Source: Ceratodon purpureus (lineage: Eukaryota; Streptophyta; Bryopsida; Pseudoditrichales; Ditrichaceae). From it: 64,000 nucleotides of DNA. The notes under the pieces were generated by a model, which had not been told where the DNA came from, searched no databases, and worked only from the letters and a program-made list of their open reading frames with translations. The number at the start of each line of letters is the position of its first letter. Position 1 is the stretch's first letter. The translations under genes were made by a program, and so were the position numbers. Location of the stretch: NCBI GenBank assembly GCA_014871385.1, contig CM026428.1:15982162-16046161 (forward strand), in the 5' to 3' direction. Below are positions 41,060-56,987 of the stretch, in pieces.

Positions 41060-42286
41060 TTAATAAGGGATAGAGAGATAAGAAGTGTGTAGAGAGATCA
41101 ATGGTGTAGATAGTGTTTCTGTAACTTCTAATTTTTGATTTATATTTTGGTGTTGTTGAAGTATAACATCTTTTGATAAGTGGTATCGGGAGTTTAAACG
41201 TAGGAAGGGATTTATAGGATGGGGTGTGGTAGATGTGTGTCGAAATTGTTTTAGGAATTTTGATGTTTTATGATTTTTGTGAGAGTGTGGTTTGGCAGGT
41301 GGGGGTGTTTGTGATTTTTTTGGATTTAAGGAAATGGGAGTGGGTGTATTAACTTGTTGTAAGAGGGTGTGGAATTTTGGAAATGGAGTGGTTTGAATTT
41401 GTCTATATTTAGTTATAGTATTTAGTAGTGGTTTGTATGTTATTTGGTACTTTTGTTTTGTATTATGGCGAGGCCGGTAGGCCGAGGCCATTTTATGGTT
41501 GTATTGTTGTATTTGGAGGTGGTGGTTTGTACTAATGTTGTGTCTATGTGGGGTGTAGAGTCTTATTTTTGGGTAGAGAGTAATTTTTGGACGACGTATG
41601 AATTTCGAAAAGACTCTAGCATTTGTAAGAAATCTGAATTTTGAGGGAAAACTGAATTTTGGATGAGATCTAGATTGTGGATGAAATCTGGATTTTGGAT
41701 GAAATCTGGATTTTAGATCAAATCTGAATTTTGGATGAAATCTGGATTTTGGATGGAATCTGGATTTTAGATGAAATCTGAATTTTGGATGAAATCTGAA
41801 TTTTGGATGAAATCTGGATCTTGGATGAAATTTGGATTTTGGATGAAATCTAAGTTTTGGATGAAATCTGAATTTTGGATGAAATCTAAGTTTTGGATGA
41901 AATCTGAATTTTGGATGAAGTCTAAATTTTTTATGAGATCTAGATTTTGGAAGAAAGCTAATTGTTGGATGGGATAGTAACTTTGAATGAAATGTTGAAT
42001 TTGGATGAGAACTAAGTTTTAGATGAAATGTAGATTTTGGATGAACTTGTAAAGTTGGTTGGAAATTGAGTTTTGAATGACTATTTGTTTGGTAATTACA
42101 TTTACACAAGTGTAAAGTAAAGTAATTGTAATTGTATTTCAAATCGTATTCAAAATACGGTAAAAACAAATATTTTCTACTATAGGAAAAAATATTTACC
42201 TCACGGTAAAAACTAAGTAAAATACTAAGCCAATGCACTAATAAGTATTTCAGTAAATACTGTTTACCTCGGCAATTTGTGGTCAA
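41060..42286 (-). other. LINE spacer with open frame through a minisatellite
   Basis: A 408-codon frame with no ATG start (it begins at TTG, overlapping the ORF1 stop) spans the ORF1-ORF2 spacer. Its middle translates as repeats of RFHPKS or RFHPKF, and its ends are Lys/His/Thr/Pro-rich with no recognised domain. The 18-bp repeat period keeps any frame open, so openness is weak evidence for a protein. Confidence 0.4.
41640..41965. repeat. 18-bp minisatellite in the LINE spacer
   Basis: About 17 tandem units of GGATGAAATCTGGATTTT (plus strand) vary mainly at GGATTTT, GAATTTT and AAGTTTT. On the coding strand it reads as a six-residue repeat, FHPKSR. More degenerate GGATGA units continue to about 42060. 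Confidence 0.93.
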
Positions 42287-43940
42287 TCCACATTTGACTT
42301 GTCTTGTAGTAAAAGTCCCCCGGTAAATTGTTGCATTCCGGTAAGTGCCAAGGTAAGAGTAGTTTGGATGTCTAACATCTGCTTCTTCAACTTCTCATTA
42401 ATATCATCCACATAATGGTGGGCCTCCTTGATGATGTCCTTCTTTAACTCAGTCATTTCCTTGTGTAACTCCACCTTCAACTTCTTGTTACCTTCCTCAA
42501 TTGCCTCCTTCATAATGGTAAAAACCTCACCTTTAGTGGCACTTGCTTCTCCTTGGTGTTGGTTTTGAATGGCTTCCACAGTATTAACCAAACACATGTT
42601 AGGGTCAGTAAAGTCAAATTTTTCTAACACTTCCTTGGAGGGTTTTTCACTTCCCTCAAGGCTTCTACGGTGGGGGGTAATTTCCACGTGGTAAACTCCG
42701 ATTTTTACCTCTTTGCCCACCCATTTTTTATAGACAAATGGACTAAGGCATTCCACATTAGCACTACCATTATGCTTAGTGCCATCTTGTTTATGGAACC
42801 AAATGCTTACCACATTTTTGGTTCCAAAAACATTGTAAATTTCAAGTGATGTAGCATCAATACTCATAAGAATTGGAAGATTGTAGAGGGTAAGAGTGAG
42901 GGCTTCTTTCCTTTGCTTTTGCTCCAAGGTAAGTGATGGGCCCTTCTTCATTTGCCCTACTAGCACCTCATGATGAGTGGTCACTTGGTTCTCTTTAATT
43001 CTCTTGGCTTGAAGAGGGGTGGGTGCAACTATGTTGGCATAGTTAAGAGGAGTGCTCTTTTGCACATCCACCACCTCAAAATCGAGGCCCCTTCTAAAAC
43101 TACTCTCCAACACATCAAAGAAGAGGGCATATGGAGACACATTCACCAAATTCTCACTTGTAATTTTAACAGATAAGTTATTATTTCTTGCAATGGCATG
43201 GTAAAACTTACATACCTTTCCCAAAGTGCCCACATTTGATGAAGGGTCAAGTAGCAAGATAAATGGCCTTAAGCCCTTCAAAAGAGCAATAGCATCGATT
43301 TCGGGGTGGAGGAGATGTAGCTTGACTATGCTAGCCCACACCCCCTTCTCTCTACCCCGTTTTACACTCATACACATAACTGAAATGGGTTCAATAAGCT
43401 TAGTACCAAGAGGGATATTCATATATTCTAATCTTTTTCTTACAAGTTCTTTGACATTGTTGTGGAAAAGGGGAGTATTAGGGAGTTCAAAATGGATTGA
43501 AACTTGAAAATCCAAAGAGAGAGAGGTGATGGGGTCAATGGATATGTCACACGGTACCTGCGTAAGGTTGAAGTGCTGTCCTGCAGTACCATCTCCTCTG
43601 GTACTAGGATATAGCAGCTGTGGAACTCGTGGAAAAGAAATGCTTACCTCTTCTATTTCGGCAGCTTCTGCCTGGAGCATGCCTCTCGTTACTCTGTCTG
43701 CCGTCGTTTCATCGGTGAAGAGGGGTTCGCAGCCACGTTCCAAGGCCAGTTTCTCCATATTCTCAAACCCCAGCCAGAGATGGCGCTGGATGGCCTGAGA
43801 CGGCGCACTGACGTGAAGAGGAGGCGTCGGGGAGATGAGTGATGTCGAGGCTGAGGCATGCTTCTCTCTTGGTCGTTTACTAGCATTGTTTACTCCAGCG
43901 CCGCCTGCTCCAGAGCTACTTGTTCGAGCGCTACTCACTC
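42283..43940 (-). CDS. LINE ORF1, 3' part (split by the gypsy element)
   Basis: This 550-codon segment ends at TGA 42283-42285 and has no ATG at its left-over 5' edge. Its true start lies beyond the gypsy insertion (see 56841-56987). It shows a Ser/Gly/Ala-rich N-terminal stretch, a globular middle, an RRM-like stretch (LTLYNLPILMSIDATSLEIY ... NVVSIWFH) at about residues 345-430, and a Lys/Glu-rich coiled-coil near the C-terminus. ORF1 proteins of LINEs bind and package the element RNA in the cytoplasm. The RRM assignment rests on pattern only. This half has no internal stop, unlike ORF2. Confidence 0.7.
43936..43940. repeat. Gypsy target-site duplication, left copy (CACTC)
   Basis: Matches CACTC at 56841-56845. 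Both lie in LINE ORF1 sequence. Confidence 0.95.
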
Positions 43941-44998
43941 TGTAGTACGACGTGGTATACGTATTCCTCCGGAAGGCACTTAATTCACACTAACTACCCT
44001 CCAAAGTAAACCACTCCGTGTTCGTTCCCACGAAGACCTATAGTTTTCTTTCTTTTAGACTTTAACGGAAATCACCACCAGTGTCCGACCGTACTCCGTC
44101 TTACAGACGGTTGGACGAATCCGGTAGTTTTTGCCTCGTTCCTATTTTCCGGCTTTTTAGACTAGTGGCCGGTTCCCACTGATCCGTCTATCCTTTAAAG
44201 TGGCTGGATTTTCCACCGTCCCGTAACTTATAGTGGCTGGACACCCCACTGTTCCTATCTACCACCCGAGAAGTGGAGTAATAATCCTTCCGTACGGCTA
44301 GGGACCGGTCCGGATAACTACTCAGTGCCGGTTACGGATACGGAAATCATACTACAATGACATCACCTTACGGCTGCGCAGTATTCTACTATACTATCTC
44401 CCTTCCGGATTGGTTCGCAGTAGGACATCCGGCTTTTATCCCATCTACAGGAAGCGACCGGTCCGTTTCCGGATCCCGGTGTACACACGGCTCTCCGTGT
44501 CCTTGAGACTACCAGCCCTGCTGCAATACGTCTCTCCTTCCCTACGGGCTCCTTCCGGGACTGGAAACCGTCAACACTCGACGCTTGACACCTCCCCAGT
44601 CTCTCCGGGCGCTCTCCTGACCTTCCTACTGTTCAACACTCCTCCAGAACACTACTGAAGACAATAGAACCACAAACCATACGGCAACGGACCCGTCAGC
44701 AGCCGGTTGACACAACAAATCCAAAAGTATATTCTCAATTGCAACAACAAAACGGCGTACAAAAACAAGGCCCCGGCCTTGGAAAAACGTCTATCTTAAA
44801 TACTAAAACCTATCGGTTCCTAAAGCGACCAAGTGGCCCACCGAGATCCAGAAATTCCGGATCTTGGATCCGGAAATCCCGGACCGGTGGCCGCCTTCTA
44901 TTCCTAGTTACTGCTGCTATCTATCCGGATTGGCAGCCGGGTGCACTGGAGCCCCATCGTTAGTCGCTGCCATTTTATCCGGTCCTTATCCTAAAACC

Positions 44999-46867
44999 CT
45001 ACTCCTTGTGCTTATCGAGCCGGGGACTGTGCCGGGTTCCGTCCAACCGTTCCTTCTTCTGTACCCGCTTCAGTTTCTTCAACGGGGGGTCTTCTTCCGG
45101 AGCCGCAGATGCTGACGGCTCACTGGACTTCCGGGATCGTTCTGCTTGAGCTGCCGGAGATGGAGATCGTGCCGCCACCGGAACTGCGCTGAGATCCACC
45201 TGGAGCGTTTCCGGAGATCCCTGTACCGGTATAAAATCTAACGGTGGTGGTCTCTGGTCCGGTTCCAAGGGAATGTTTCCGGGGTTAACAGCCTCGACTC
45301 CATCCAAGTTGGGTAAAGTGTGCAGACTGCTCAAGGTGTCCGGAATAGGATCCTCCAGCGGGTGTCCTATCTCCTGTTGGGCGGGCCGGATGGCCGACCG
45401 TATCGGAGAGGCTGGAGGTGGCACCGGTGCCGGTTCCCTGGTTGGGGACGGTGGTCTGGGATCCTCTTGATTTGCCGGTGGCCCTGATGAAGGACCGGCC
45501 TCTGCGTAACCGAGGATTTCCACCAGGTTCTTCATCATCGTCCATGTGTCCCTCATCACCTGTGTCCGGTCGTGCATGAACTTTATAATATTCTTCGTAG
45601 TCGGATCCGGTTGACGGGTCAGGAAAGCCTGGTAAACGGCGCACTGATTGGCCACATCTACCGGAAGAGCTAAAGTGGCCTTGATCTCAGCGACCGACCG
45701 GATGGCCTCGACTGCCCGGTCACGGGCGTCATTGAAATCCTTCCGGGCATCACGCACCTCCTCCTCGAGCTTCCGATTCGTCTCCCGGTACTTCGCCAGC
45801 CGGTCCATGTGCTTCTCCTGGAGACCGGCCAAGTCCCGGTGCTTGCGAAGAATGCTCAGGCAATCCTCCAACTGGTCCGAACCCGTAAGGATCATTACCT
45901 CCCTAGCCAACCGGCCCTCCGCCTTCCTAGTCGACTGTAAGAACCGGGCATATGTCGTTGCCTGCTCCGATAGGTTAACTAAGTCCTGGTACGGATCTCC
46001 GGTGTGCTCCGGTGGTCCGGTGGGCTGTTGGATCTCCGTGTTCAGGGTTCGCTTGGCCGGTGCGGGAGTCCGAGGTGATCCGGATGGCTGTCCCTTTTCC
46101 GGGCTAGGACGGGGTCTCTTAGCCGGCGTGGGGGAGACCTCAATAACATCATCCTCGTCGTCCTGGTCGGACACTTCTTCCGGCTCAGCGAACTGCTGAT
46201 AGCTTAAGAGCATATCGTACTCCCGGACCTCTTCAGCACTCAACAGTCCCTTAGTACGGTAGAGGTGAATGAGGAAAGACGGAAGGCAGGTGGCCTGCTT
46301 CTTGGTCTTCCGGAGATTGGCCACCTGTCGGTCGACTATCGTCTTCATCATGACCCCCCAGTCCACCGTGAATTCACCGATCATGGCTCCAATGAAAACG
46401 GACGCCCACTTGTTGGTGATCCGTTTGGGCTTTTCCGGATGGAAAATAGGGTTCATAAACCCTACTACTCTCCGGGCCTCCGGATCCGCAATGTCATCCA
46501 GCCCCCATCCTTCTCTCGGGTCTCCGGTCCCCTTGAGATACTGATGTATGAAGTCCCGGGGCTCCGGCGTCGAGACCTCGCCGCCGGAGTTCTTGAAACC
46601 ATACGTCTCCCTCCAGAGTTGTGCCGACCACTTATCCGGCTCTCCTCGGATGGTTCCTCGATTCTCAGGATTCTTGACGAGGATCTCCTGGGCCGGAAGG
46701 GCAAGCTTCCAACCCCATGCCTTGTCCAGTAGGACCTCACAACCCATAGACTCTAAGGCGGTCCGGAGGAGCTCCTTCTCCTTCTCTCCGGCCGGTATCA
46801 ACGGCATTACCCGTTGTACCCTGAACGACTGTCCTTCCGCCGCCGGTTCCTTCCCTTTCCTACCCAT
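44999..46867 (-). CDS. LTR-encoded 622-aa protein (3' LTR copy)
   Basis: This copy has the same amino-acid sequence as the 5' LTR copy at 54381-56249. In the 3' LTR it also has its own TATA box upstream (47072-47078). It could therefore be transcribed on its own, reading outward toward the LINE ORF1 remnant. Confidence 0.75.
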   Translation of the reverse strand: MGRKGKEPAAEGQSFRVQRVMPLIPAGEKEKELLRTALESMGCEVLLDKAWGWKLALPAQEILVKNPENRGTIRGEPDKWSAQLWRETYGFKNSGGEVSTPEPRDFIHQYLKGTGDPREGWGLDDIADPEARRVVGFMNPIFHPEKPKRITNKWASVFIGAMIGEFTVDWGVMMKTIVDRQVANLRKTKKQATCLPSFLIHLYRTKGLLSAEEVREYDMLLSYQQFAEPEEVSDQDDEDDVIEVSPTPAKRPRPSPEKGQPSGSPRTPAPAKRTLNTEIQQPTGPPEHTGDPYQDLVNLSEQATTYARFLQSTRKAEGRLAREVMILTGSDQLEDCLSILRKHRDLAGLQEKHMDRLAKYRETNRKLEEEVRDARKDFNDARDRAVEAIRSVAEIKATLALPVDVANQCAVYQAFLTRQPDPTTKNIIKFMHDRTQVMRDTWTMMKNLVEILGYAEAGPSSGPPANQEDPRPPSPTREPAPVPPPASPIRSAIRPAQQEIGHPLEDPIPDTLSSLHTLPNLDGVEAVNPGNIPLEPDQRPPPLDFIPVQGSPETLQVDLSAVPVAARSPSPAAQAERSRKSSEPSASAAPEEDPPLKKLKRVQKKERLDGTRHSPRLDKHKE

Positions 46868-47071
46868 TCTGCTAAGTCCTCCTCTCCGTCACTCCGGTAA
46901 CACCTGCACGCACGATCCTCACCACAATCTCTCGCCTAACGGAAACACTTCCGTCTCACCGTCTCTCTCTCCTACCGTCTAACCCTAACTGCGCCCACCG
47001 CCTTAGAGCGCAAGGACCCGTCGTGCCACAAAATGACAAAGAGAAAGGAAGAGCATGGCGGTCCTTCCTCC

Positions 47072-47078
47072 TTTTATA
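47072..47078 (-). promoter_or_regulatory. TATA box of the 3' LTR
   Basis: Identical TATAAAA in the 3' LTR. It could drive outward transcription across 46.9-43.9 kb. Confidence 0.75.
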
Positions 47079-47458
47079 CCTGCCCTCGCGCCCACCCGTT
47101 CGTAGCTCATCATGACGGACGGTCGTAGCCCCTCATCATTGGACGGTCGCGACCGGCGGCGTTTTAATGGTTGCAGCCATTATCCCCGTGTGCGTTGTAC
47201 CTTTTGGTGGTTATCCTTAAGTCTGCCGGGTCAGGGCTCTGTCATATGGACTGTACCCGTCTCTCCTCCACCGCAGACGACCGGATCTCACCCGGCTGGC
47301 CTTCCGGTCACTTATTTATTCAGCCGACCGGCTTAACTGGTTGTTTTACTTATAGGCTTAGTACTTCCGTATTTCTAACATAAAATTTTTAATTTTTTTA
47401 TCATTTTCCTACCGGAATTAGTATTCCGGTGTGTCAACCGTGGAAATCACTTTCCACA

Positions 47459-47475
47459 TTACCCCTTTTTCACCC
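47459..47475 (-). other. Polypurine tract overlapping the pol stop
   Basis: GGGTGAAAAAGGGGTAA directly precedes the 3' LTR on the minus strand. The pol TGA stop (47470-47472) lies within it. Confidence 0.85.
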
Positions 47476-50400
47476 GTGAGCGTCCTCGCGAACGTCATCC
47501 GGTCTGTACAGTTTGACCCGGGATCCATTCACCCTAGTATCCATTGGATATCCTTCTAGGTCTGAAAGTTGTAATGACCCATTGGAATAAATCTTATCAA
47601 CCCGGAACGGTCCCATCCAGCGAGTATGTAACTTACCCGGGAAATTCTTGTACCGGCTGTCATAGACTAGAACCAATCCTCCTTCTTCGATTCCTTTATC
47701 CGTTGTGATTCGCTTGTCATACACTTCCTTCCTTTTGGCTTGGACCTCCTTTGTCCGTTCCAATGCCTCCATCCGGTCTTCCTCCATCCGGTCGATGACC
47801 TGTAGACGGTCGTCGAGTGCATCCGTTTTATCTCCGTGGTTGGCTGCGAGTACCCTTAACGTCTCTACTTCCGTCTCGATGGACTGAAGTACCTCCTGTC
47901 CGTATACCAGGTAATACGGAGTCCGTCCGGTTGTACTCTTGTGTGCCGTGTTGTACGCGTAGACCGCCGATGTCAGTTTCCGGTCCCAGTCCGTCTTATG
48001 TGAGGTCACCACCTTGGTCAGAATCTTACAGATTATTCCGTTGGCACGTTCCGTCAATCCGTTCGCCTTAGGATTGTACGGTGTGGTCTTCCGGTGTTTG
48101 ACCTCGTACTGGTTGGTCAGACCGGCCACCACTTCGTTCAGGAAATGTGTTCCCCGGTCGCTCACTATCTCCAACGGATGGCCAAATCGCATCATTATCC
48201 TTTCGAATATGAACCGGGCGGATGTCTCGGCATCATTCTTCCGGGTGGCTCTGGCTTCTACCCACTTCGTGGCGTAGTCCGTCGCCAAAATGATGTACCG
48301 GTGCCTCTGAGTGCCTACCGGTTGAATTGGTCCAATAAAATCCACTCCCCATTTTTCAAACGGTGCTAGTGGAACAATGGGAGTTAACGGCCAGTGATGC
48401 CGTACGGCCGGAGCTCCTATCCGTTGGCAGGGATCGCATTCTTTTATAAATTGATGAACATCCCGGTGAAGGTGTGGCCACCAGTATCCGGCCTCGCGGA
48501 TCTTCTGTACGGTGATGACGGATGCATAGTGTCCTCCGGCCGGTCCATCATGCAAAGCCCGGATGACCTTCCGGCGATAGATGGGTTCTAGGCAGCGTCG
48601 GAGTTTTTCATCCGCCCCTAGTTTGAAAAGCAATTCTCCGACGAGGAAGTACGGTGCCACCCGGTGCTGAAACACACTCTTCTCCTCCCTACTCAGTCCT
48701 TCCGGATACCTCTGAGTCTGGAGATAGTTCTTAATCCGCTGAAGATCCTGGTCCTCCCCTTCGTCCTCCTGAATTCGGTAGACGGAAGACGTACCTCCTA
48801 CGACCGGAAGGTCGCGGGGGTCCGGTATATCCTGTATACTGGTACCAACCGGGTATTCTTCAGGGAATTCATCCGGAAACTCTGAAGATATCTCCTCCTT
48901 GCTCTCCTTCCCCCGTTGTCGCGACAAATAATCTGCATTGAGGTTAGACTTCCCGGATTTGACAATAACTTCGTAGTTGAACTCCTGAAGAAGTAATATC
49001 CACCGGGCCAACCTTCCGGACAGATCCGGTTTGTTGACTAGATACTTCAGCGAGTCATGATCCGTATGGAAGATGACTTTGTACCCCAATAGGTAATGGC
49101 GAAATTTCTTGCACGCATAAATGACGGCTAGAGCCTCCCGTTCGGTTGTCGTGTAATTCTTCTCGGCCGGATTCATCTGCCGGCTGGCATAATAGATGGG
49201 TCGTTCCCGGCCCTCGTCATCCAATTGCCATAGGATAGCTCCCACACACCAACCGGATGCATCCAAAGTGACATGAAAAGATTTCGACCAATCCGGTGGG
49301 GCTAGTATAGGGGCTGTGACCAACCGTCTCTTCAGTTCTTCAAAAGCCTGTTGACGGATTTCCGTCCAGAGGTACTCTTCTTCCTTCTTGAGCAGCTCCG
49401 TTAGTGGCATTGCCAACCGGGCATAATTCTCAATGAACCTCCGGTAGTATCCCAAACACCCCAGAAATCCTCTGAGTTCCCGGAGGTTGGTGGGGGCAAG
49501 AAGGGCCAACATGACTATTACTTTTGCTACATCCACTGCTATTCCCTTCCGGCTGACTATGTGTCCGAGCAATAGTCCGGCTAACATACCGAAAAAACAC
49601 TTGCCCGGATGGAGCTTGAGTTTAGTCTCCCGGCATCGCTGGAACGTTTTCCGGAGATAGTCCAGATGTTCCACCCACCGGCTGAACACCGCAAAGTCGT
49701 CAATGAAAACTTCCAGGAAATGTTTTAAGAAATCCTGAAATATGTCCATCATCAACCGTTGAAACGTTCCGGGAGCATTGCACAATCCGAAAGGCATCCG
49801 GTTGAAAGCGTAGGTACCCCAATCGGTGGTAAAAGTAGTTTTCAGTTGGTCCTCCTTCCGGATGGACACCTGATTGTATCCGGAAAACCCATCTAGAAAA
49901 CTGAAGCATTCCTGACCGGCCACGTGATCGAGCACCATGTCGATGAAGGGTAAAGGGAAATGATCCTTCTTCGTGGCTGCATTCAGCTTCCGGAAATCCT
50001 GACGTACCCGGATTTTGACTTTACCATCCGGACCCGTTTTCTTTGGTACTACTACAATCGGTGACACCCACTCGGAGTTATTCACTGGATAAATAAAACC
50101 GGCTTCCAGCAGTTTATCTAGTTCCTCCTTCACCATCATGGAGTACTTTGGGTTGAGCCGGTACTGCCTTTGGCGAACCGGAACCGCTCCTTCCATTAGG
50201 TCGATGTGGTGTTCGCCCAGTTCCGGCGGTATACCCACCAGATCCGATGGAAGCCAGGCGAAGACGTCATCATATTCCGTAAGCAGTTCCAAATACTGTG
50301 CCCGCTCCCGGTCCGTCAGTCCTTTTCCCAAATAGAAAGTCCTACCGGTTTCCGTCTTCACTGCTTCGTAATCTTCCGGTGCTACCACATTCTTGACCGG

Positions 50401-50850
50401 TTCGCTAGCATCCGTTTCTACGGACCCCGGAAGGGCTGACCAGGGTAAGTCACTGGTCCTTGACCCGGATATCCCTGTTTTGATTATCCCATCTGCGAAC
50501 TGTCCTTTAATCCATTCGGAGGTCAACGGAACGCTTGCTTCTCCTAGGGCCCGGTCATCGTCCTTCCTGCCTTCCGGTGGTCGGTTCGGTACTTCGGTTC
50601 CATCCGGCTTCTGTTCAGGTACCGGGTTACGGAATCCCAGATCTTCTTCTGATACCTCCCGGAATTCTTGTACATGATATGACTGCAGGGAATCCGAGTT
50701 TTCTGAACTTGTCCAATCGGAAGTGTAACCATCCGTCTCACTTGTTTCCCCCAGATGGAGCTCCGGTTTCCACGATAGCAAAACAGCCGGATCCCCGAAG
50801 TAAAAGCCTTCTTCGCCCAATTTACCTTGACTCCGGCTAGATATAGCCAC
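47470..50850 (-). CDS. pol: Gypsy Pol: reverse transcriptase, RNase H, integrase
   Basis: This 1126-codon frame lies in the -1 frame relative to protease and overlaps it by 307 nt; no ATG start is evident (it opens upstream of 50850). RT has FLDGFSGYNQ, MPFGLCNAPGTFQRLM and FIDD at the catalytic site. RNase H has TLDASGWCVGAIL, TEREALAVIYACKKFRHYL and FHTDHDSLKYL. Integrase has an HHCC finger (GHYASVITVQKIR ... CDPCQR), the DDE core (WGVDFIGP, IVSDRGTHF, ANGLTERANG) and a C-terminal GPF-type module (RWMGPFRV). No chromodomain follows. No stop or missing catalytic residue is seen. It copies element RNA to DNA and integrates it. Confidence 0.95.
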   Translation of the reverse strand: MAISSRSQGKLGEEGFYFGDPAVLLSWKPELHLGETSETDGYTSDWTSSENSDSLQSYHVQEFREVSEEDLGFRNPVPEQKPDGTEVPNRPPEGRKDDDRALGEASVPLTSEWIKGQFADGIIKTGISGSRTSDLPWSALPGSVETDASEPVKNVVAPEDYEAVKTETGRTFYLGKGLTDRERAQYLELLTEYDDVFAWLPSDLVGIPPELGEHHIDLMEGAVPVRQRQYRLNPKYSMMVKEELDKLLEAGFIYPVNNSEWVSPIVVVPKKTGPDGKVKIRVRQDFRKLNAATKKDHFPLPFIDMVLDHVAGQECFSFLDGFSGYNQVSIRKEDQLKTTFTTDWGTYAFNRMPFGLCNAPGTFQRLMMDIFQDFLKHFLEVFIDDFAVFSRWVEHLDYLRKTFQRCRETKLKLHPGKCFFGMLAGLLLGHIVSRKGIAVDVAKVIVMLALLAPTNLRELRGFLGCLGYYRRFIENYARLAMPLTELLKKEEEYLWTEIRQQAFEELKRRLVTAPILAPPDWSKSFHVTLDASGWCVGAILWQLDDEGRERPIYYASRQMNPAEKNYTTTEREALAVIYACKKFRHYLLGYKVIFHTDHDSLKYLVNKPDLSGRLARWILLLQEFNYEVIVKSGKSNLNADYLSRQRGKESKEEISSEFPDEFPEEYPVGTSIQDIPDPRDLPVVGGTSSVYRIQEDEGEDQDLQRIKNYLQTQRYPEGLSREEKSVFQHRVAPYFLVGELLFKLGADEKLRRCLEPIYRRKVIRALHDGPAGGHYASVITVQKIREAGYWWPHLHRDVHQFIKECDPCQRIGAPAVRHHWPLTPIVPLAPFEKWGVDFIGPIQPVGTQRHRYIILATDYATKWVEARATRKNDAETSARFIFERIMMRFGHPLEIVSDRGTHFLNEVVAGLTNQYEVKHRKTTPYNPKANGLTERANGIICKILTKVVTSHKTDWDRKLTSAVYAYNTAHKSTTGRTPYYLVYGQEVLQSIETEVETLRVLAANHGDKTDALDDRLQVIDRMEEDRMEALERTKEVQAKRKEVYDKRITTDKGIEEGGLVLVYDSRYKNFPGKLHTRWMGPFRVDKIYSNGSLQLSDLEGYPMDTRVNGSRVKLYRPDDVREDAHG

Positions 50851-51662
50851 GGCCGTCCGAGTAACAGGGGAAACGGATTTCCTTCCTCCACCCGGATAAC
50901 CAAATAGTTGAGCGGGTAAGTGAGTCCGGAAATCTTTGTCGGTACTGCCGACAGTTTTCCCACTGGTACAACTCGAGACTGGTCTGCCATCCGTAGAGTC
51001 TGATTGGTAGGCTCAAAGACAGTGTACCCTAAATCATTGGCCGTACTCTCCAGTAGTAGATTTACTCCGGATCCTCCATCTACCGGTACCTTCTGGATAA
51101 GGCATCCGTCGATCTCCACAGCTATTTCCGGAGCCCCGAAATCCTCCATCTCGGCGAAATTAACTGCGACGGAAGGCAGCTTAATCTTCCGTTTACGGGT
51201 CCGGATTAAACCGGACTTAACCTGCTTCTGATAATTAGGATTATCATGTAACAGTTGTCCTATGGTGACATTGGCCGGCTGGGCCTGAATATCCTGGAGG
51301 ATGTCGTACCTGTCGGCTTTCGCCCGGACCTCCGGTTGGATAATTTCCGGAATCTCGCTGAATGTCACCTTCCGGCCCTCCTGTACTTGAGGTAACCCAG
51401 CAATTACCTCCGGTCCAATATCCGGCATAGTTGGTAGGGTCTTGACCCCTTTTTCAACCGGGACCGTCTCCGGGGGCACCTCCTTCTCTGATTCCCCGGA
51501 AGTTTCTGAAGATTCCGGTCGGCTACTCTCTTTCCTCTGTGACCTGGTCCGAACACCAGATGTCCTCTTCTTCTTTTCTGAATCCTGTCTCCGGGTGGAA
51601 CTACGCGAACTGACCTGATGGATACCCACGCCGGTCTCTCCTCGTGGTTCCACCGGTAACCG
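50544..51662 (-). CDS. pro: Gypsy protease region, in frame with gag after one UGA
   Basis: The frame continues directly from gag through TGA CGG. No ATG stands at its start, so it is most simply made as a readthrough extension of Gag. A basic/Ser-rich linker (about 100 residues) is followed by a retroviral-type aspartic protease with VPVDGGSGVNLLLES as the active-site loop, where most families have D-T/S-G. A conserved end reads PFPLLLGRPWLYLAG. Homology stops near VNWAKKAF; the remaining about 85 codons of this frame overlap the start of pol in another frame and are probably not the main product. Confidence 0.85.
   Translation of the reverse strand, partial: RLPVEPRGETGVGIHQVSSRSSTRRQDSEKKKRTSGVRTRSQRKESSRPESSETSGESEKEVPPETVPVEKGVKTLPTMPDIGPEVIAGLPQVQEGRKVTFSEIPEIIQPEVRAKADRYDILQDIQAQPANVTIGQLLHDNPNYQKQVKSGLIRTRKRKIKLPSVAVNFAEMEDFGAPEIAVEIDGCLIQKVPVDGGSGVNLLLESTANDLGYTVFEPTNQTLRMADQSRVVPVGKLSAVPTKISGLTYPLNYLVIRVEEGNPFPLLLGRPWLYLAGVKVNWAKKAFTSGIRLFCYRGNRSSIWGKQVRRMVTLPIGQVQKTRIPCSHIMYKNSGRYQKKIWDSVTRYLNRSRMEPKYRTDHRKAGRTMTGP
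50801..50808 (-). promoter_or_regulatory. Candidate -1 frameshift site between protease and pol
   Basis: Protein homology switches frame where the minus strand reads GGCTTTTA: protease frame AAG GCT TTT ACT, pol frame GGC TTT TAC TTC. The A-site UUU can re-pair perfectly after a -1 slip; the P-site cannot. It is thus not a canonical X-XXY-YYZ site, and a simple 1-nt indel is the alternative. Confidence 0.4.
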
Positions 51663-51665
51663 TCA
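51660..51665 (-). promoter_or_regulatory. UGA-CGG leaky stop candidate between gag and protease
   Basis: The minus strand reads AAT TGA CGG TTA at the gag end, with the downstream frame open for 372 further codons. UGA followed by CGG is an established readthrough context in several plant RNA viruses. Its use here is inferred. Confidence 0.65.
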
Positions 51666-53228
51666 ATTTGGCGGATTCTCTACCCCGTCTTTGTGACCGT
51701 AGTTGAGCCCGGTACGCTCCCGGGGAGGTTCTTCCACTTGCTTATAGATAGCCCTAGGTCTAACCGGTTGTTGGCATTGGGGTGACTTATGGCAGTACTG
51801 ACCACAGTTTTGACACGGAAGTTCCAACGGTGCGCCTTGACCTCCTCGGTGTGGACAATTGTTAGCATAATGACCGGCTTCTCCACAAATATAACAGCAT
51901 CCAAACTGCCGTTCCACCGAGACGGGTGGTCGTGCCGGCGGGGCCGGATGTCCACCGGATGGATAGCCCATTCCGGGTCGCGGTCTGATAACCGGCTGCA
52001 TCATCCGTCCACGGCCATAGGCCGGGTTTACCTGGTAAACCGGTAGCATCTCCACTTCCTCCTCTTCATAAGCAGGTTCCGCAAAGAATACTGACCCCTC
52101 TTCATCCACAAACTGCACTCTCTTGGGCGCTCCGTGTGGGCATTCCCGGTTGTAATGTCCCGGCTTTCCGCAGTTGGTGCACCACACATTGTTCTGGACG
52201 GTGGGCAGCGCTTTCCGTGCTTTCTTCTCTTCCGCCATCTGGACTTTGAGTTCTTCAATGCTGTTCACCAGATCTTTGATCATCCGTTTCTCCGATGGGT
52301 ATTCCTCCTTTACTCGGACTATCGTCCGTTCTTTGTCCTTCCGGTAGCCCTTGCTACCTGACGCCTTCCGTCGTGAGCGGTCCTCCTCACTGCTGCTGCT
52401 TCCGGTTTCCGAGCTATCTTCGGAGCTGGATCCACTGGATTCTGAACTAGAATCCCGGCTCCTCCGGACCTTTCGGAGACGTCTAGAGGTCTTCCCTGCC
52501 TTACGGTACTGTCGTATGGACTGCTTGGAGTTTTCATAGTTCTGGGCGGCCTCCATGGCCTCCGGTAAAGTCTGTGGCCGGGTCTGCCTTACTTGGAACC
52601 CCATCCGGTCGGGTAACCCAGCGACGTACCATTCTACCTGGATACTGTTTGCAATTCCGGGACTTAGTTTATGAATTAAACTCCTAACCCTCTGTCCGTA
52701 CCGGCGGACCGACTCTTCCGGCTCCATCCGGATTTTACTAAGTTTTCCCAATGTGCGGGCTTCTCCTCCTACCTCCCGGAAGGCCCTCCGGAAGGCATCG
52801 GATAGCAAACCCCAACTCCTTCGCACGTTGTCCGGTTCCTCTTGGTACCACTGGAGTGCCTCCTTCTTGAGTAATCCCTGGAACAACCGTAACTTGATTG
52901 CTTCGTCCTCTTGGTTGGCAGCAGCCGTGGCGTTGAACTCGCTTAGCCATTCGTCCACGTCCTCCCGGCCATCGCCCCTGAACTTCCGATACTTCAGCCG
53001 GGAGAACGTCCGGGCCATAGGAAGACCCGCTACCGGTCCTCCGGTCACCGGCCCGGGTGGTACTGTCCCACCCTGACCTCCGGATCCGGAAGTCCCGGCT
53101 ATCTCTTGATCTGTGTCTTCAATGAACTCTGCTCTAGTAGTGACGAATGGTCTGGCTTCCGTCTCCTGATCACCCTTCTTCTTTCTACTAGACCTCCGTA
53201 CTCCTTCCGGCTCAGAATTCGGATTCAT
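51663..53228 (-). CDS. gag: Gypsy Gag polyprotein
   Basis: ATG 53228 starts 95 nt inside the 5' LTR, just past the PBS. 521 codons. An Arg/Lys/Ser-rich N-terminus is followed by a Retrotrans_gag core at about residues 70-240 (KFRGDGREDVDEWLSEF, WYVAGLPDRM). A charged Ser/Arg/Lys linker follows, then three zinc knuckles: CTNCGKPGHYNREC, CYICGEAGHYANNC and CQNCGQYCHKSPQC. Gag forms the cytoplasmic particle and binds element RNA. It ends at TGA 51663-51665, after which the same frame stays open into protease. Its start codon is about 3.2 kb from the predicted transcript start, behind the LTR ORF, which raises the question of how it is reached by ribosomes. Confidence 0.93.
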   Translation of the reverse strand: MNPNSEPEGVRRSSRKKKGDQETEARPFVTTRAEFIEDTDQEIAGTSGSGGQGGTVPPGPVTGGPVAGLPMARTFSRLKYRKFRGDGREDVDEWLSEFNATAAANQEDEAIKLRLFQGLLKKEALQWYQEEPDNVRRSWGLLSDAFRRAFREVGGEARTLGKLSKIRMEPEESVRRYGQRVRSLIHKLSPGIANSIQVEWYVAGLPDRMGFQVRQTRPQTLPEAMEAAQNYENSKQSIRQYRKAGKTSRRLRKVRRSRDSSSESSGSSSEDSSETGSSSSEEDRSRRKASGSKGYRKDKERTIVRVKEEYPSEKRMIKDLVNSIEELKVQMAEEKKARKALPTVQNNVWCTNCGKPGHYNRECPHGAPKRVQFVDEEGSVFFAEPAYEEEEVEMLPVYQVNPAYGRGRMMQPVIRPRPGMGYPSGGHPAPPARPPVSVERQFGCCYICGEAGHYANNCPHRGGQGAPLELPCQNCGQYCHKSPQCQQPVRPRAIYKQVEEPPRERTGLNYGHKDGVENPPN

Positions 53229-53295
53229 GCGTTTTCTACACCCTGACTTGGGTTAGTGACAACCGTAGAAATCCGGAGAAAGAAAATCATATAGA

Positions 53296-53313
53296 TCCCC
53301 GGCAGCGGCACCA
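53296..53313 (-). other. Primer-binding site, tRNA-Asp type
   Basis: Nine nt inside the 5' LTR the minus strand reads TGGTGCCGCTGCCGGGGA. It starts with TGG, as required to pair with CCA, and closely resembles the tRNA-Asp-complementary PBS known from Athila/Tat elements (TGGCGCCGTTGCCGGGGA). It should prime minus-strand DNA synthesis. Confidence 0.85.
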
Positions 53314-54380
53314 AAAATCACATGTAGCACGACGTGGTATACGTATTCCTCCGGAAGGCACTTAATTCACACTAACTACCCTCCAAAGTAAACCACTCCG
53401 TGTTCGTTCCCACGAAGACCTATAGTTTTCTTTCTTTTAGACTTTAACGGAAATCACCACCAGTGTCCGACCGTACTCCGTCTTACAGACGGTTGGACGA
53501 ATCCGGTAGTTTTTGCCTCGTTCCTATTTTCCGGCTTTTTAGACTAGTGGCCGGTTCCCACTGATCCGTCTATCCTTTAAAGTGGCTGGATTTTCCACCG
53601 TCCCGTAACTTATAGTGGCTGGACACCCCACTGTTCCTATCTACCACCCGAGAAGTGGAGTAATAATCCTTCCGTACGGCTAGGGACCGGTCCGGATAAC
53701 TACTCAGTGCCGGTTACGGATACGGAAATCATACTACAATGACATCACCTTACGGCTGCGCAGTATTCTACTATACTATCTCCCTTCCGGATTGGTTCGC
53801 AGTAGGACATCCGGCTTTTATCCCATCTACAGGAAGCGACCGGTCCGTTTCCGGATCCCGGTGTACACACGGCTCTCCGTGTCCTTGAGACTACCAGCCC
53901 TGCTGCAATACGTCTCTCCTTCCCTACGGGCTCCTTCCGGGACTGGAAACCGTCAACACTCGACGCTTGACACCTCCCCAGTCTCTCCGGGCGCTCTCCT
54001 GACCTTCCTACTGTTCAACACTCCTCCAGAACACTACTGAAGACAATAGAACCACAAACCATACGGCAACGGACCCGTCAGCAGCCGGTTGACACAACAA
54101 ATCCAAAAGTATATTCTCAATTGCAACAACAAAACGGCGTACAAAAACAAGGCCCCGGCCTTGGAAAAACGTCTATCTTAAATACTAAAACCTATCGGTT
54201 CCTAAAGCGACCAAGTGGCCCACCGAGATCCAGAAATTCCGGATCTTGGATCCGGAAATCCCGGACCGGTGGCCGCCTTCTATTCCTAGTTACTGCTGCT
54301 ATCTATCCGGATTGGCAGCCGGGTGCACTGGAGCCCCATCGTTAGTCGCTGCCATTTTATCCGGTCCTTATCCTAAAACC

Positions 54381-56249
54381 CTACTCCTTGTGCTTATCGA
54401 GCCGGGGACTGTGCCGGGTTCCGTCCAACCGTTCCTTCTTCTGTACCCGCTTCAGTTTCTTCAACGGGGGGTCTTCTTCCGGAGCCGCAGATGCTGACGG
54501 CTCACTGGACTTCCGGGATCGTTCTGCTTGAGCTGCCGGAGATGGAGATCGTGCCGCCACCGGAACTGCGCTGAGATCCACCTGGAGCGTTTCCGGAGAT
54601 CCCTGTACCGGTATAAAATCTAACGGTGGTGGTCTCTGGTCCGGTTCCAAGGGAATGTTTCCGGGGTTAACAGCCTCGACTCCATCCAAGTTGGGTAAAG
54701 TGTGCAGACTGCTCAAGGTGTCCGGAATAGGATCCTCCAGCGGGTGTCCTATCTCCTGTTGGGCGGGCCGGATGGCCGACCGTATCGGAGAGGCTGGAGG
54801 TGGCACCGGTGCCGGTTCCCTGGTTGGGGACGGTGGTCTGGGATCCTCTTGATTTGCCGGTGGCCCTGATGAAGGACCGGCCTCTGCGTAACCGAGGATT
54901 TCCACCAGGTTCTTCATCATCGTCCATGTGTCCCTCATCACCTGTGTCCGGTCGTGCATGAACTTTATAATATTCTTCGTAGTCGGATCCGGTTGACGGG
55001 TCAGGAAAGCCTGGTAAACGGCGCACTGATTGGCCACATCTACCGGAAGAGCTAAAGTGGCCTTGATCTCAGCGACCGACCGGATGGCCTCGACTGCCCG
55101 GTCACGGGCGTCATTGAAATCCTTCCGGGCATCACGCACCTCCTCCTCGAGCTTCCGATTCGTCTCCCGGTACTTCGCCAGCCGGTCCATGTGCTTCTCC
55201 TGGAGACCGGCCAAGTCCCGGTGCTTGCGAAGAATGCTCAGGCAATCCTCCAACTGGTCCGAACCCGTAAGGATCATTACCTCCCTAGCCAACCGGCCCT
55301 CCGCCTTCCTAGTCGACTGTAAGAACCGGGCATATGTCGTTGCCTGCTCCGATAGGTTAACTAAGTCCTGGTACGGATCTCCGGTGTGCTCCGGTGGTCC
55401 GGTGGGCTGTTGGATCTCCGTGTTCAGGGTTCGCTTGGCCGGTGCGGGAGTCCGAGGTGATCCGGATGGCTGTCCCTTTTCCGGGCTAGGACGGGGTCTC
55501 TTAGCCGGCGTGGGGGAGACCTCAATAACATCATCCTCGTCGTCCTGGTCGGACACTTCTTCCGGCTCAGCGAACTGCTGATAGCTTAAGAGCATATCGT
55601 ACTCCCGGACCTCTTCAGCACTCAACAGTCCCTTAGTACGGTAGAGGTGAATGAGGAAAGACGGAAGGCAGGTGGCCTGCTTCTTGGTCTTCCGGAGATT
55701 GGCCACCTGTCGGTCGACTATCGTCTTCATCATGACCCCCCAGTCCACCGTGAATTCACCGATCATGGCTCCAATGAAAACGGACGCCCACTTGTTGGTG
55801 ATCCGTTTGGGCTTTTCCGGATGGAAAATAGGGTTCATAAACCCTACTACTCTCCGGGCCTCCGGATCCGCAATGTCATCCAGCCCCCATCCTTCTCTCG
55901 GGTCTCCGGTCCCCTTGAGATACTGATGTATGAAGTCCCGGGGCTCCGGCGTCGAGACCTCGCCGCCGGAGTTCTTGAAACCATACGTCTCCCTCCAGAG
56001 TTGTGCCGACCACTTATCCGGCTCTCCTCGGATGGTTCCTCGATTCTCAGGATTCTTGACGAGGATCTCCTGGGCCGGAAGGGCAAGCTTCCAACCCCAT
56101 GCCTTGTCCAGTAGGACCTCACAACCCATAGACTCTAAGGCGGTCCGGAGGAGCTCCTTCTCCTTCTCTCCGGCCGGTATCAACGGCATTACCCGTTGTA
56201 CCCTGAACGACTGTCCTTCCGCCGCCGGTTCCTTCCCTTTCCTACCCAT
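54381..56249 (-). CDS. LTR-encoded 622-aa protein (5' LTR copy)
   Basis: An intact ATG-to-stop frame lies wholly inside the LTR, about 205 nt after the TATA box, and would be the first ORF on the element transcript. Regions: globular N-domain at residues 30-225 (with WASVFIGAMIGEFTVDWG and CLPSFLIHLYRTKG); acidic patch DQDDEDD near 234-240; NLS-like AKRPRPSPEK at 249-258; coiled coil at about 295-400; a helical stretch to 455; a Pro-rich region; and a basic tail LKKLKRVQKKERL. The N-domain faintly resembles the 'putative plant transposon protein' region (Transposase_32) found with some Athila-like elements. That call is tentative. Function is unknown; nuclear signals plus a coiled coil suggest a nucleic-acid- or chromatin-associated oligomer. 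Confidence 0.8.
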   Translation of the reverse strand: MGRKGKEPAAEGQSFRVQRVMPLIPAGEKEKELLRTALESMGCEVLLDKAWGWKLALPAQEILVKNPENRGTIRGEPDKWSAQLWRETYGFKNSGGEVSTPEPRDFIHQYLKGTGDPREGWGLDDIADPEARRVVGFMNPIFHPEKPKRITNKWASVFIGAMIGEFTVDWGVMMKTIVDRQVANLRKTKKQATCLPSFLIHLYRTKGLLSAEEVREYDMLLSYQQFAEPEEVSDQDDEDDVIEVSPTPAKRPRPSPEKGQPSGSPRTPAPAKRTLNTEIQQPTGPPEHTGDPYQDLVNLSEQATTYARFLQSTRKAEGRLAREVMILTGSDQLEDCLSILRKHRDLAGLQEKHMDRLAKYRETNRKLEEEVRDARKDFNDARDRAVEAIRSVAEIKATLALPVDVANQCAVYQAFLTRQPDPTTKNIIKFMHDRTQVMRDTWTMMKNLVEILGYAEAGPSSGPPANQEDPRPPSPTREPAPVPPPASPIRSAIRPAQQEIGHPLEDPIPDTLSSLHTLPNLDGVEAVNPGNIPLEPDQRPPPLDFIPVQGSPETLQVDLSAVPVAARSPSPAAQAERSRKSSEPSASAAPEEDPPLKKLKRVQKKERLDGTRHSPRLDKHKE

Positions 56250-56453
56250 TCTGCTAAGTCCTCCTCTCCGTCACTCCGGTAACACCTGCACGCACGATCC
56301 TCACCACAATCTCTCGCCTAACGGAAACACTTCCGTCTCACCGTCTCTCTCTCCTACCGTCTAACCCTAACTGCGCCCACCGCCTTAGAGCGCAAGGACC
56401 CGTCGTGCCACAAAATGACAAAGAGAAAGGAAGAGCATGGCGGTCCTTCCTCC

Positions 56454-56460
56454 TTTTATA
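56454..56460 (-). promoter_or_regulatory. TATA box of the 5' LTR
   Basis: TATAAAA on the minus strand in a GC-rich context (GCAGGTATAAAAGGAGG). It predicts a start site near 56425 and a leader of about 175 nt before the LTR ORF. Confidence 0.8.
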
Positions 56461-56840
56461 CCTGCCCTCGCGCCCACCCGTTCGTAGCTCATCATGACGG
56501 ACGATCGTAGCCCCTCATCATTGGACGGTCGCGACCGGCGGCGTTTTAATGGTTGCAGCCATTATCCCCGTGTGCGTTGTACCTTTTGGTGGTTATCCTT
56601 AAGTCTGCCGGGTCAGGGCTCTGTCATATGGACTGTACCCGTCTCTCCTCCACCGCAGACGACCGGATCTCACCCGGCTGGCCTTCCGGTCACTTATTTA
56701 TTCAGCCGACCGGCTTAACTGGTTGTTTTACTTATAGGCTTAGTACTTCCGTATTTCTAACATAAAATTTTTAATTTTTTTATCATTTTCCTACCGGAAT
56801 TAGTATTCCGGTGTGTCAACCGTGGAAATCACTTTCCACA

Positions 56841-56987
56841 CACTCCAACGCCGTTTACTCCAATATTTGCAGCATTCTGGTTTGCTACTGCCACTGATCG
56901 CTTGTTCAGACTTTGAGTAGGAGTGTCAATCTCCATGCACTCCTCCTCTGGTCCAAAACAAGACAGAAAAGCAGCCGAATTCGCCAT
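56841..56987 (-). CDS. LINE ORF1, 5' part (start codon side of the split gene)
   Basis: The frame runs from ATG 56987 (MANSAAFLSCFG) to the gypsy insertion point. It rejoins the 3' part in frame when the gypsy element and one CACTC copy are discounted (147 nt + 1653 nt, about 599 aa in total). The Met at 56987 is the first ATG in this frame for about 2.4 kb. Confidence 0.7.

Follow-up and report, generated by a model that had tools for sequence, protein, structure and literature searches.

A selected protein gene within the long terminal repeats of a moss Ty3/gypsy retrotransposon, possibly paired with a self-marking DNA word

Long terminal repeats (LTRs) are usually viewed as regulatory sequence only, and the extra open reading frames (ORFs) of plant retrotransposons are described, in the portions of the literature available to us, in the internal region. 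Given this view, we questioned why a Ty3/gypsy element of the moss Ceratodon purpureus carries a complete 622-codon frame inside each of its LTRs. The element occupies positions 56840..43941 of a 64,000-nucleotide stretch (GenBank assembly GCA_014871385.1, contig CM026428.1, positions 15,982,162 to 16,046,161), hereafter the window; all coordinates refer to it, and all features of the element lie on its reverse strand unless stated otherwise. The frame is a real, selected protein gene and not a chance frame, and its location in the LTR is conserved between two families of elements. What is new here is the placement of an accessory gene of an LTR retrotransposon in the LTR itself, possibly paired with a short self-marking DNA word that covers the element.

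An intact gene in each LTR

The two LTRs of the window element (5' LTR, 53323..56840; 3' LTR, 43941..47458) differ at 2 positions over 3,518 bp and run from TGTG to TACA. As the initial annotation had described, each contains an uninterrupted ORF of 622 codons from ATG to stop (54381..56249 in the 5' LTR and 44999..46867 in the 3' LTR), and the two translations are identical. Within the LTR, 591 bases precede the ORF and 1,058 follow it, which places it, also as annotated, between the LTR TATA box and the primer binding site (PBS). When the LTR was dinucleotide-shuffled 300 times, the longest ATG-to-stop ORF to arise was 480 codons (mean of 124).

We assessed the gene across the genome (362 Mb in 151 contigs), beginning with the family of the window element (family A). 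A search with the LTR protein yielded 2,838 candidates, 71 of which were scored; 57 of these had no internal stop and 14 carried one. The stops were TAG in 11 of the 14 copies and TGA in three, the pattern that decay of methylated CAG sites to TAG would produce. Among the scored copies, 22 pairs were spaced 9.30-9.45 kb apart, a distance that fits two LTRs of a single element. In an alignment of 38 family A LTRs (two incomplete places, L030 and L059, were dropped from 40), three indel events fell in the ORF (3, 6 and 1 nt) versus 13 and 8 in two noncoding parts. Variable sites numbered 90, 67 and 161 at the first, second and third codon positions, the pooled uncorrected ratio of nonsynonymous to synonymous change (dN/dS) was 0.33, and the frame was open and of full length in 32 of the 38. 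Family A copies were chosen by protein similarity, which flatters the estimate of conservation; variants private to one element were in fact more conservative than shared variants. As one check on this bias, copies were retrieved with 281 bases of noncoding LTR (n = 40): 28 were present in the ORF lists (21 free of stops, 6 carrying a single stop and 1 partial), and the other 12 were unlisted.

Family B offered a second check on this bias, since the protein used to choose its copies was no more than about 34% identical. The family B LTR is approximately 3.65 kb long (one element, both LTRs examined), and its ORF of 729 codons begins 525 bases after the LTR start; the ORF length was 729-731 codons in 19 of 20 copies. 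Uncorrected dN/dS was 0.163 (n = 20 copies; 0.126 without L013), variable sites by codon position numbered 56, 61 and 212, and all ORF indels were multiples of three (6, 3, 15 and 6 nt) versus 1-4 nt in noncoding sequence. Among the 87 matches of the family B search, 23 pairs were spaced 9.6-9.95 kb apart. The N-terminal domains (N-domains) of the two families share 33% identity over 217 residues (E 5e-30). A third family in the same genome, of which 781 bases were examined, has the end of the N-domain, an acidic stretch, a basic KKRK patch and a heptad-like helix in the same order (by eye), and more distant relatives were found on public contigs. The check on dN/dS and frameshifts that the initial annotation had suggested therefore came out in favor of the gene. 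An internal stop in 14 of the 71 scored copies might point to a non-functional or recently captured frame; we regard this as extremely improbable, since it is already contradicted by the dN/dS range (0.16-0.33), by the mostly frame-keeping indels and by conservation between families only 33% identical.

In 13 LTR pairs of single family A elements, the ORF differed by 3 synonymous and 5 nonsynonymous changes and the noncoding sequence by 16. Such low counts mean that these insertions are young, and they give too small a sample for a test of selection acting after insertion. Solo LTRs account for two of the 38 aligned family A LTRs, each with its own target duplication; the ORF is open in one (L032) and not open in the other (L037). 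A conserved LTR gene changes what a solo LTR could represent: instead of a relic, a compact gene that has both its promoter and its coding sequence. Two further family A LTRs (L065 and L054) share 22 identical upstream bases and have differing downstream flanks, as after duplication or ectopic recombination. Pol was 98-100% identical in most of 81 scored copies and some family A LTRs diverged more; at L038, for example, DNA identity with the window LTR is 92.4% and protein identity of the adjacent pol 97%. The LTR gene may evolve faster than pol, or may be exchanged. By eye, the more diverged copies of the LTR ORF crowd on one 110-Mb contig (C6; 39 of 71 rows in the list of diverged copies, versus 11 of 71 in that of close copies).

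A short DNA word covers the element

The word CGGA (TCCG on the opposite strand) forms a carpet of about 29 copies per kb over 43941..56840, counted on both strands, and stops at the LTR ends. Its density was 29.1 per kb in family A and 30.3 per kb in the family B pieces examined, versus 3.98 per kb elsewhere in the window; as a control, the reversed word AGGC gave 5.3, 5.7 and 4.75 per kb, respectively. In 200-bp bins, the count drops to 0 at either end of the window element, from 6 at one and 5 at the other; at one LTR end of family B, 15 copies in 452 bases give way to 1 in 649. Across loci L009-L068, CGGA reached 29.5 per kb inside elements (225 kb) versus 5.0 in flanks (25.6 kb, 32 loci), and the reversed word 6.2 and 5.4 per kb. 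In 2-kb bins, TCCGG/CCGGA numbered 33-43 wholly inside the window element versus at most 8 wholly outside it, CACTA and long interspersed nuclear element (LINE) sequence included. Codon usage is not the cause of the carpet, because synonymous-codon shuffles that kept the protein and the codon counts reached the observed number of CCGG in 0 of 500 cases for each of the LTR ORF, gag and pol of family A and the LTR ORF of family B. Both strands are enriched in family A (CCGGA, 101 observed versus 20.6 expected; TCCGG, 67 versus 15.2), which suits recognition of double-stranded DNA.

The word also differs between families, being preceded by C and followed two bases later by G in family A (CCGGAWG-like), and preceded by C or T and followed two bases later by C in family B (YCGGAWC-like). 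CpGs within the word varied less than other CpGs, with odds ratios of 0.44, 0.53, 0.67 and 0.39 (families A and B, noncoding and ORF). The pooled odds ratio was 0.47 (p 0.0006), with p < 0.05 in only one single stratum, and a test of conservation at fourfold sites was negative in family A and gave p 0.028 in family B. Genome-wide, clusters of three CCGGA words numbered 5,593 versus 1,348 for the reversed pattern; among 100 places listed, all on contig C1, several lay in family A elements and others in other repeats. Four of the clusters on C1 (G000:C1:494430, 505515, 8961755 and 8967886) lie in repeats unmatched to family A, which may belong to other families that share the word.

These observations bear on whether the carpet has anything to do with the LTR protein. 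The gene could be real and the word could have arisen from a context-dependent copying bias, or from avoidance of a host factor, with no binding by the LTR protein. Random spacing of the word within the element, clusters in other repeats, a weaker CGGA-type excess in the third family and weak conservation in single tests are all consistent with such an origin. The differing flank preferences of families A and B, the pooled conservation of word CpGs, and the sharp stop at element ends, with flanks and reversed word near background, argue against it, and we consider it distinctly unlikely.

The predicted protein and its possible function

The layout that the initial annotation had read from the translation (N-domain, acidic patch, nuclear localization signal (NLS)-like motif, coiled coil, basic tail) agrees with our structure model and with alignments by eye, which give an N-domain, an acidic patch, a basic NLS-like patch, a long helix and a basic tail. 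The N-domain (residues 13-226; 55572..56213) was predicted to fold with a pLDDT of 84.5, and a fold search of the predicted model returned one match that stood out among PDB entries, a remote one to VANC21. At the sequence level, the VANC domains DUF1985 and DUF287 were absent from the hmmscan matches of the proteins of families A and B and their relatives. No Pfam model scored above cut-off in this search, PF20167 and Athila models included, and the models of the Athila, Ogre, Retand and Grande extra ORFs were not among the matches of the LTR protein. A link to Athila ORFs, PF20167 or PF03078 thus found no support, PF03078 having been assessed by hmmscan only; the whole genome held 20 PF20167 matches, all below cut-off and none at the listed places of the LTR ORF.

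VANC21 and VANC6 are proteins of Arabidopsis VANDAL elements, which accumulate a short family-specific word (PMC5735166, in the part available). The moss families resemble this system in that a transposon-encoded protein accompanies a short family-specific word accumulated in its own element, and the remote fold match of the predicted N-domain of family A hints at a further likeness. They differ in that the host is an LTR retrotransposon with the gene in its LTR, and in that the word is randomly spaced and present in coding DNA too, and not in tandem repeats that are mainly noncoding. Anti-silencing counter-defense has also been named for the DNA transposons Spm and MuDR (PMC10398659, in part).

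We therefore propose that the product of the LTR gene is a nuclear protein which binds the element encoding it and opposes silencing, a mechanism to which we give an even chance and which draws on the co-occurrence of carpet and gene, the remote fold match and the NLS-like patches. RNA made from the LTR's own TATA box would have as its first ORF a nuclear accessory protein in which a globular N-domain is followed by an acidic stretch, a basic NLS-like patch, a long helix, probably for oligomerization, and a disordered basic tail. This protein would bind double-stranded DNA at the CGGA-core word (CCGGAWG-like in family A, YCGGAWC-like in family B), hundreds of copies of which have built up across noncoding and coding parts of the element alike. 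A coat of this protein on the element's DNA could ward off methylation and heterochromatin, as VANC proteins do for VANDAL transposons. Because the gene sits in the LTR, a full element has two copies of it, and promoter, gene and target sites can all persist in a solo LTR. A broader scenario, which we hold with somewhat more doubt, is that a plant gypsy lineage transferred an anti-silencing gene to its LTR and wrote the recognition word over the whole element, using synonymous choice in gag and pol. A solo LTR would then be a free-standing anti-silencing gene that might protect all its relatives in trans, and each family, with its own word (CCGGAWG versus YCGGAWC), would protect only its own kind. 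If the anti-silencing reading is true, VANDAL-type counter-defense extends to LTR retrotransposons, each of the two families offers a testable protein-word pair, and selection for a DNA word has acted through transposon coding sequence.

In the nearest rival reading, the LTR protein binds specific DNA sequence and regulates the element that carries it, as a transcription activator or a guide of cDNA or integrase, but has no anti-silencing activity. The carpet, the fold and the NLS-like patches fit any factor that binds self-DNA, and the accessory protein of Grande is nuclear with an unknown role (PMC7264820, in part). A promoter factor, however, would need no sites throughout gag and pol, and the outstanding PDB match is to an anti-silencing factor; we consider this alternative unlikely.

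A long helix and a basic tail are common in RNA-binding and particle proteins. The structure model gives the LTR protein both, and its ORF would come first on the genomic RNA, so that a role on RNA or particles (packaging, nuclear export or a capsid accessory), with the DNA word unrelated, must be weighed. Enrichment of the word on both strands, which suits double-stranded DNA, speaks against it, as does the lack of any significant hmmscan match to capsid or RNA-binding families; in a PDB sequence search, the LINE-1 ORF1 coiled coil reached E 0.047, which is not significant. We judge such a role quite improbable. Of the three functions put forward in the initial annotation, packaging thus gained nothing in its favor, and nuclear targeting is likely insofar as the protein has basic NLS-like patches, but no further. 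The suggested anti-silencing role acquired two leads, the VANC21-like fold and the carpet of self motifs, with its mechanism still conjectural.

Transcription and the route to Gag-Pol

The initial annotation had placed the LTR ORF first on the genomic RNA, and the leader agrees in part. The TATA box (TATAAAA, 56454..56460) lies at LTR position 381 and the ORF begins 211 nt downstream of it, at LTR position 592. From the position of the TATA box, transcription would start near LTR positions 406-411. No ATG occurs from position 406 to the ORF (56250..56435 from the putative start) in 38 of 38 family A copies, for which the mononucleotide shuffle chance is 0.03; an ATG at position 403 lies just upstream of the putative start. 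In family B, the last 131 bases upstream of the ORF are free of ATG in 19 of 19 copies (L013 dropped; mononucleotide shuffle chance 0.06). With an ATG-free leader, the LTR ORF should be the first one translated.

Between the stop of the LTR ORF and gag there are 9 ATGs, whose frames are 21 codons or shorter; gag is therefore probably reached by another route. A candidate 5' splice site, GGTGAG, occurs in the leader at 56337..56342, with a second at 56300-56305, and every leader compared (38 family A and 19 family B copies) contains the motif somewhere. A candidate 3' splice site, CACTAACCCAAGTCAG, lies just upstream of gag (53243..53258) and shows small changes across 13 copies examined; family A has an acceptor-like CACTAAC..CAG stretch immediately upstream of gag. 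As a lead, splicing from the leader to just before gag would remove the LTR ORF and the PBS and give a Gag-Pol mRNA, and the unspliced RNA would serve as genome and encode the LTR protein. The leader is G-rich, and by eye family B has no equally clear acceptor.

Element architecture and relationship to known systems

The remaining parts of the window element are those of a Ty3/gypsy retrotransposon: TG..CA LTRs, a 5-bp target-site duplication GAGTG on both sides (43936-43940 and 56841-56845), a PBS (TGGTGCCGCTGCCGGGGATC, 53294..53313) directly after the 5' LTR, a polypurine tract (AAAAAGGGGTAA, 47459..47470) before the 3' LTR, gag, and the order reverse transcriptase (RT), RNase H, integrase. 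The PBS is TGGCGCC in the other 5' LTR copies examined and TGGCGCCGCTGCCGGGGATTCG after the 5' LTR of one family B element. The gag ORF (51663..53228) matches Retrotrans_gag, Ty3_capsid and zinc knuckles in Pfam, and the 908-aa pol ORF (47470..50196) matches RT, RNase H and integrase; the first base of the polypurine tract is shared with the pol stop codon. Between them lies an ORF (50544..51428) with no Pfam match, presumed by position alone to be the protease side. The pol stop is 11 bases from the 3' LTR and the 5' LTR 94 bases from the gag ATG, leaving no space in the internal part for an extra gene at either end. The pol frame of the window copy is split (50196-51428) into separate ORFs of 294 and 908 codons, and many of the 81 scored pol relatives have a single open frame of 1,397 codons. 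A chromovirus identity was rejected, since the Pfam matches of the 908-aa pol ORF, taken up to an E of 5, include no chromodomain. By Pfam alone, with no reference model for the additional RNase H (aRH) that marks the Tat/Ogre/Retand (OTA) group, the RT-linked RNase H is the only one in the window ORFs.

Known elements share some of these features, as far as the available parts of their descriptions go. The Sag/Naf ORF of mouse mammary tumor virus (MMTV) also lies within the LTR and is thus present twice; Sag, however, is a U3 ORF that precedes the main transcription start, whereas the moss ORF begins downstream of the TATA box, and host and role differ (PMC9412291). Plant additional or extra ORFs (aORFs/eORFs: Athila ORF-1, the Ogre plant mobile domain, Retand Transposase_28 and Grande gene23) are likewise extra proteins of unknown or nuclear role in gypsy elements without a chromodomain, but are internal, upstream or downstream of gag-pol (PMC6317226, PMC11963269, PMC7264820). 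The Phygy clade of Physcomitrella is, like the window element, non-chromoviral, with a polyprotein that nearly fills the internal part. An LTR ORF goes unmentioned in the available part of its description, and the Phygy NCGN target preference is absent at the GAGTG duplication of the window element (PMC6317226).

Outside the element, a 491-codon ORF (42283-43758) adjoins the 3' LTR, and its sole Pfam match is weak. A tandem repeat at 41504-42097, with 23 overlapping copies in register in 18-nt steps, lies on a strongly skewed stretch that adjoins a LINE-like block.
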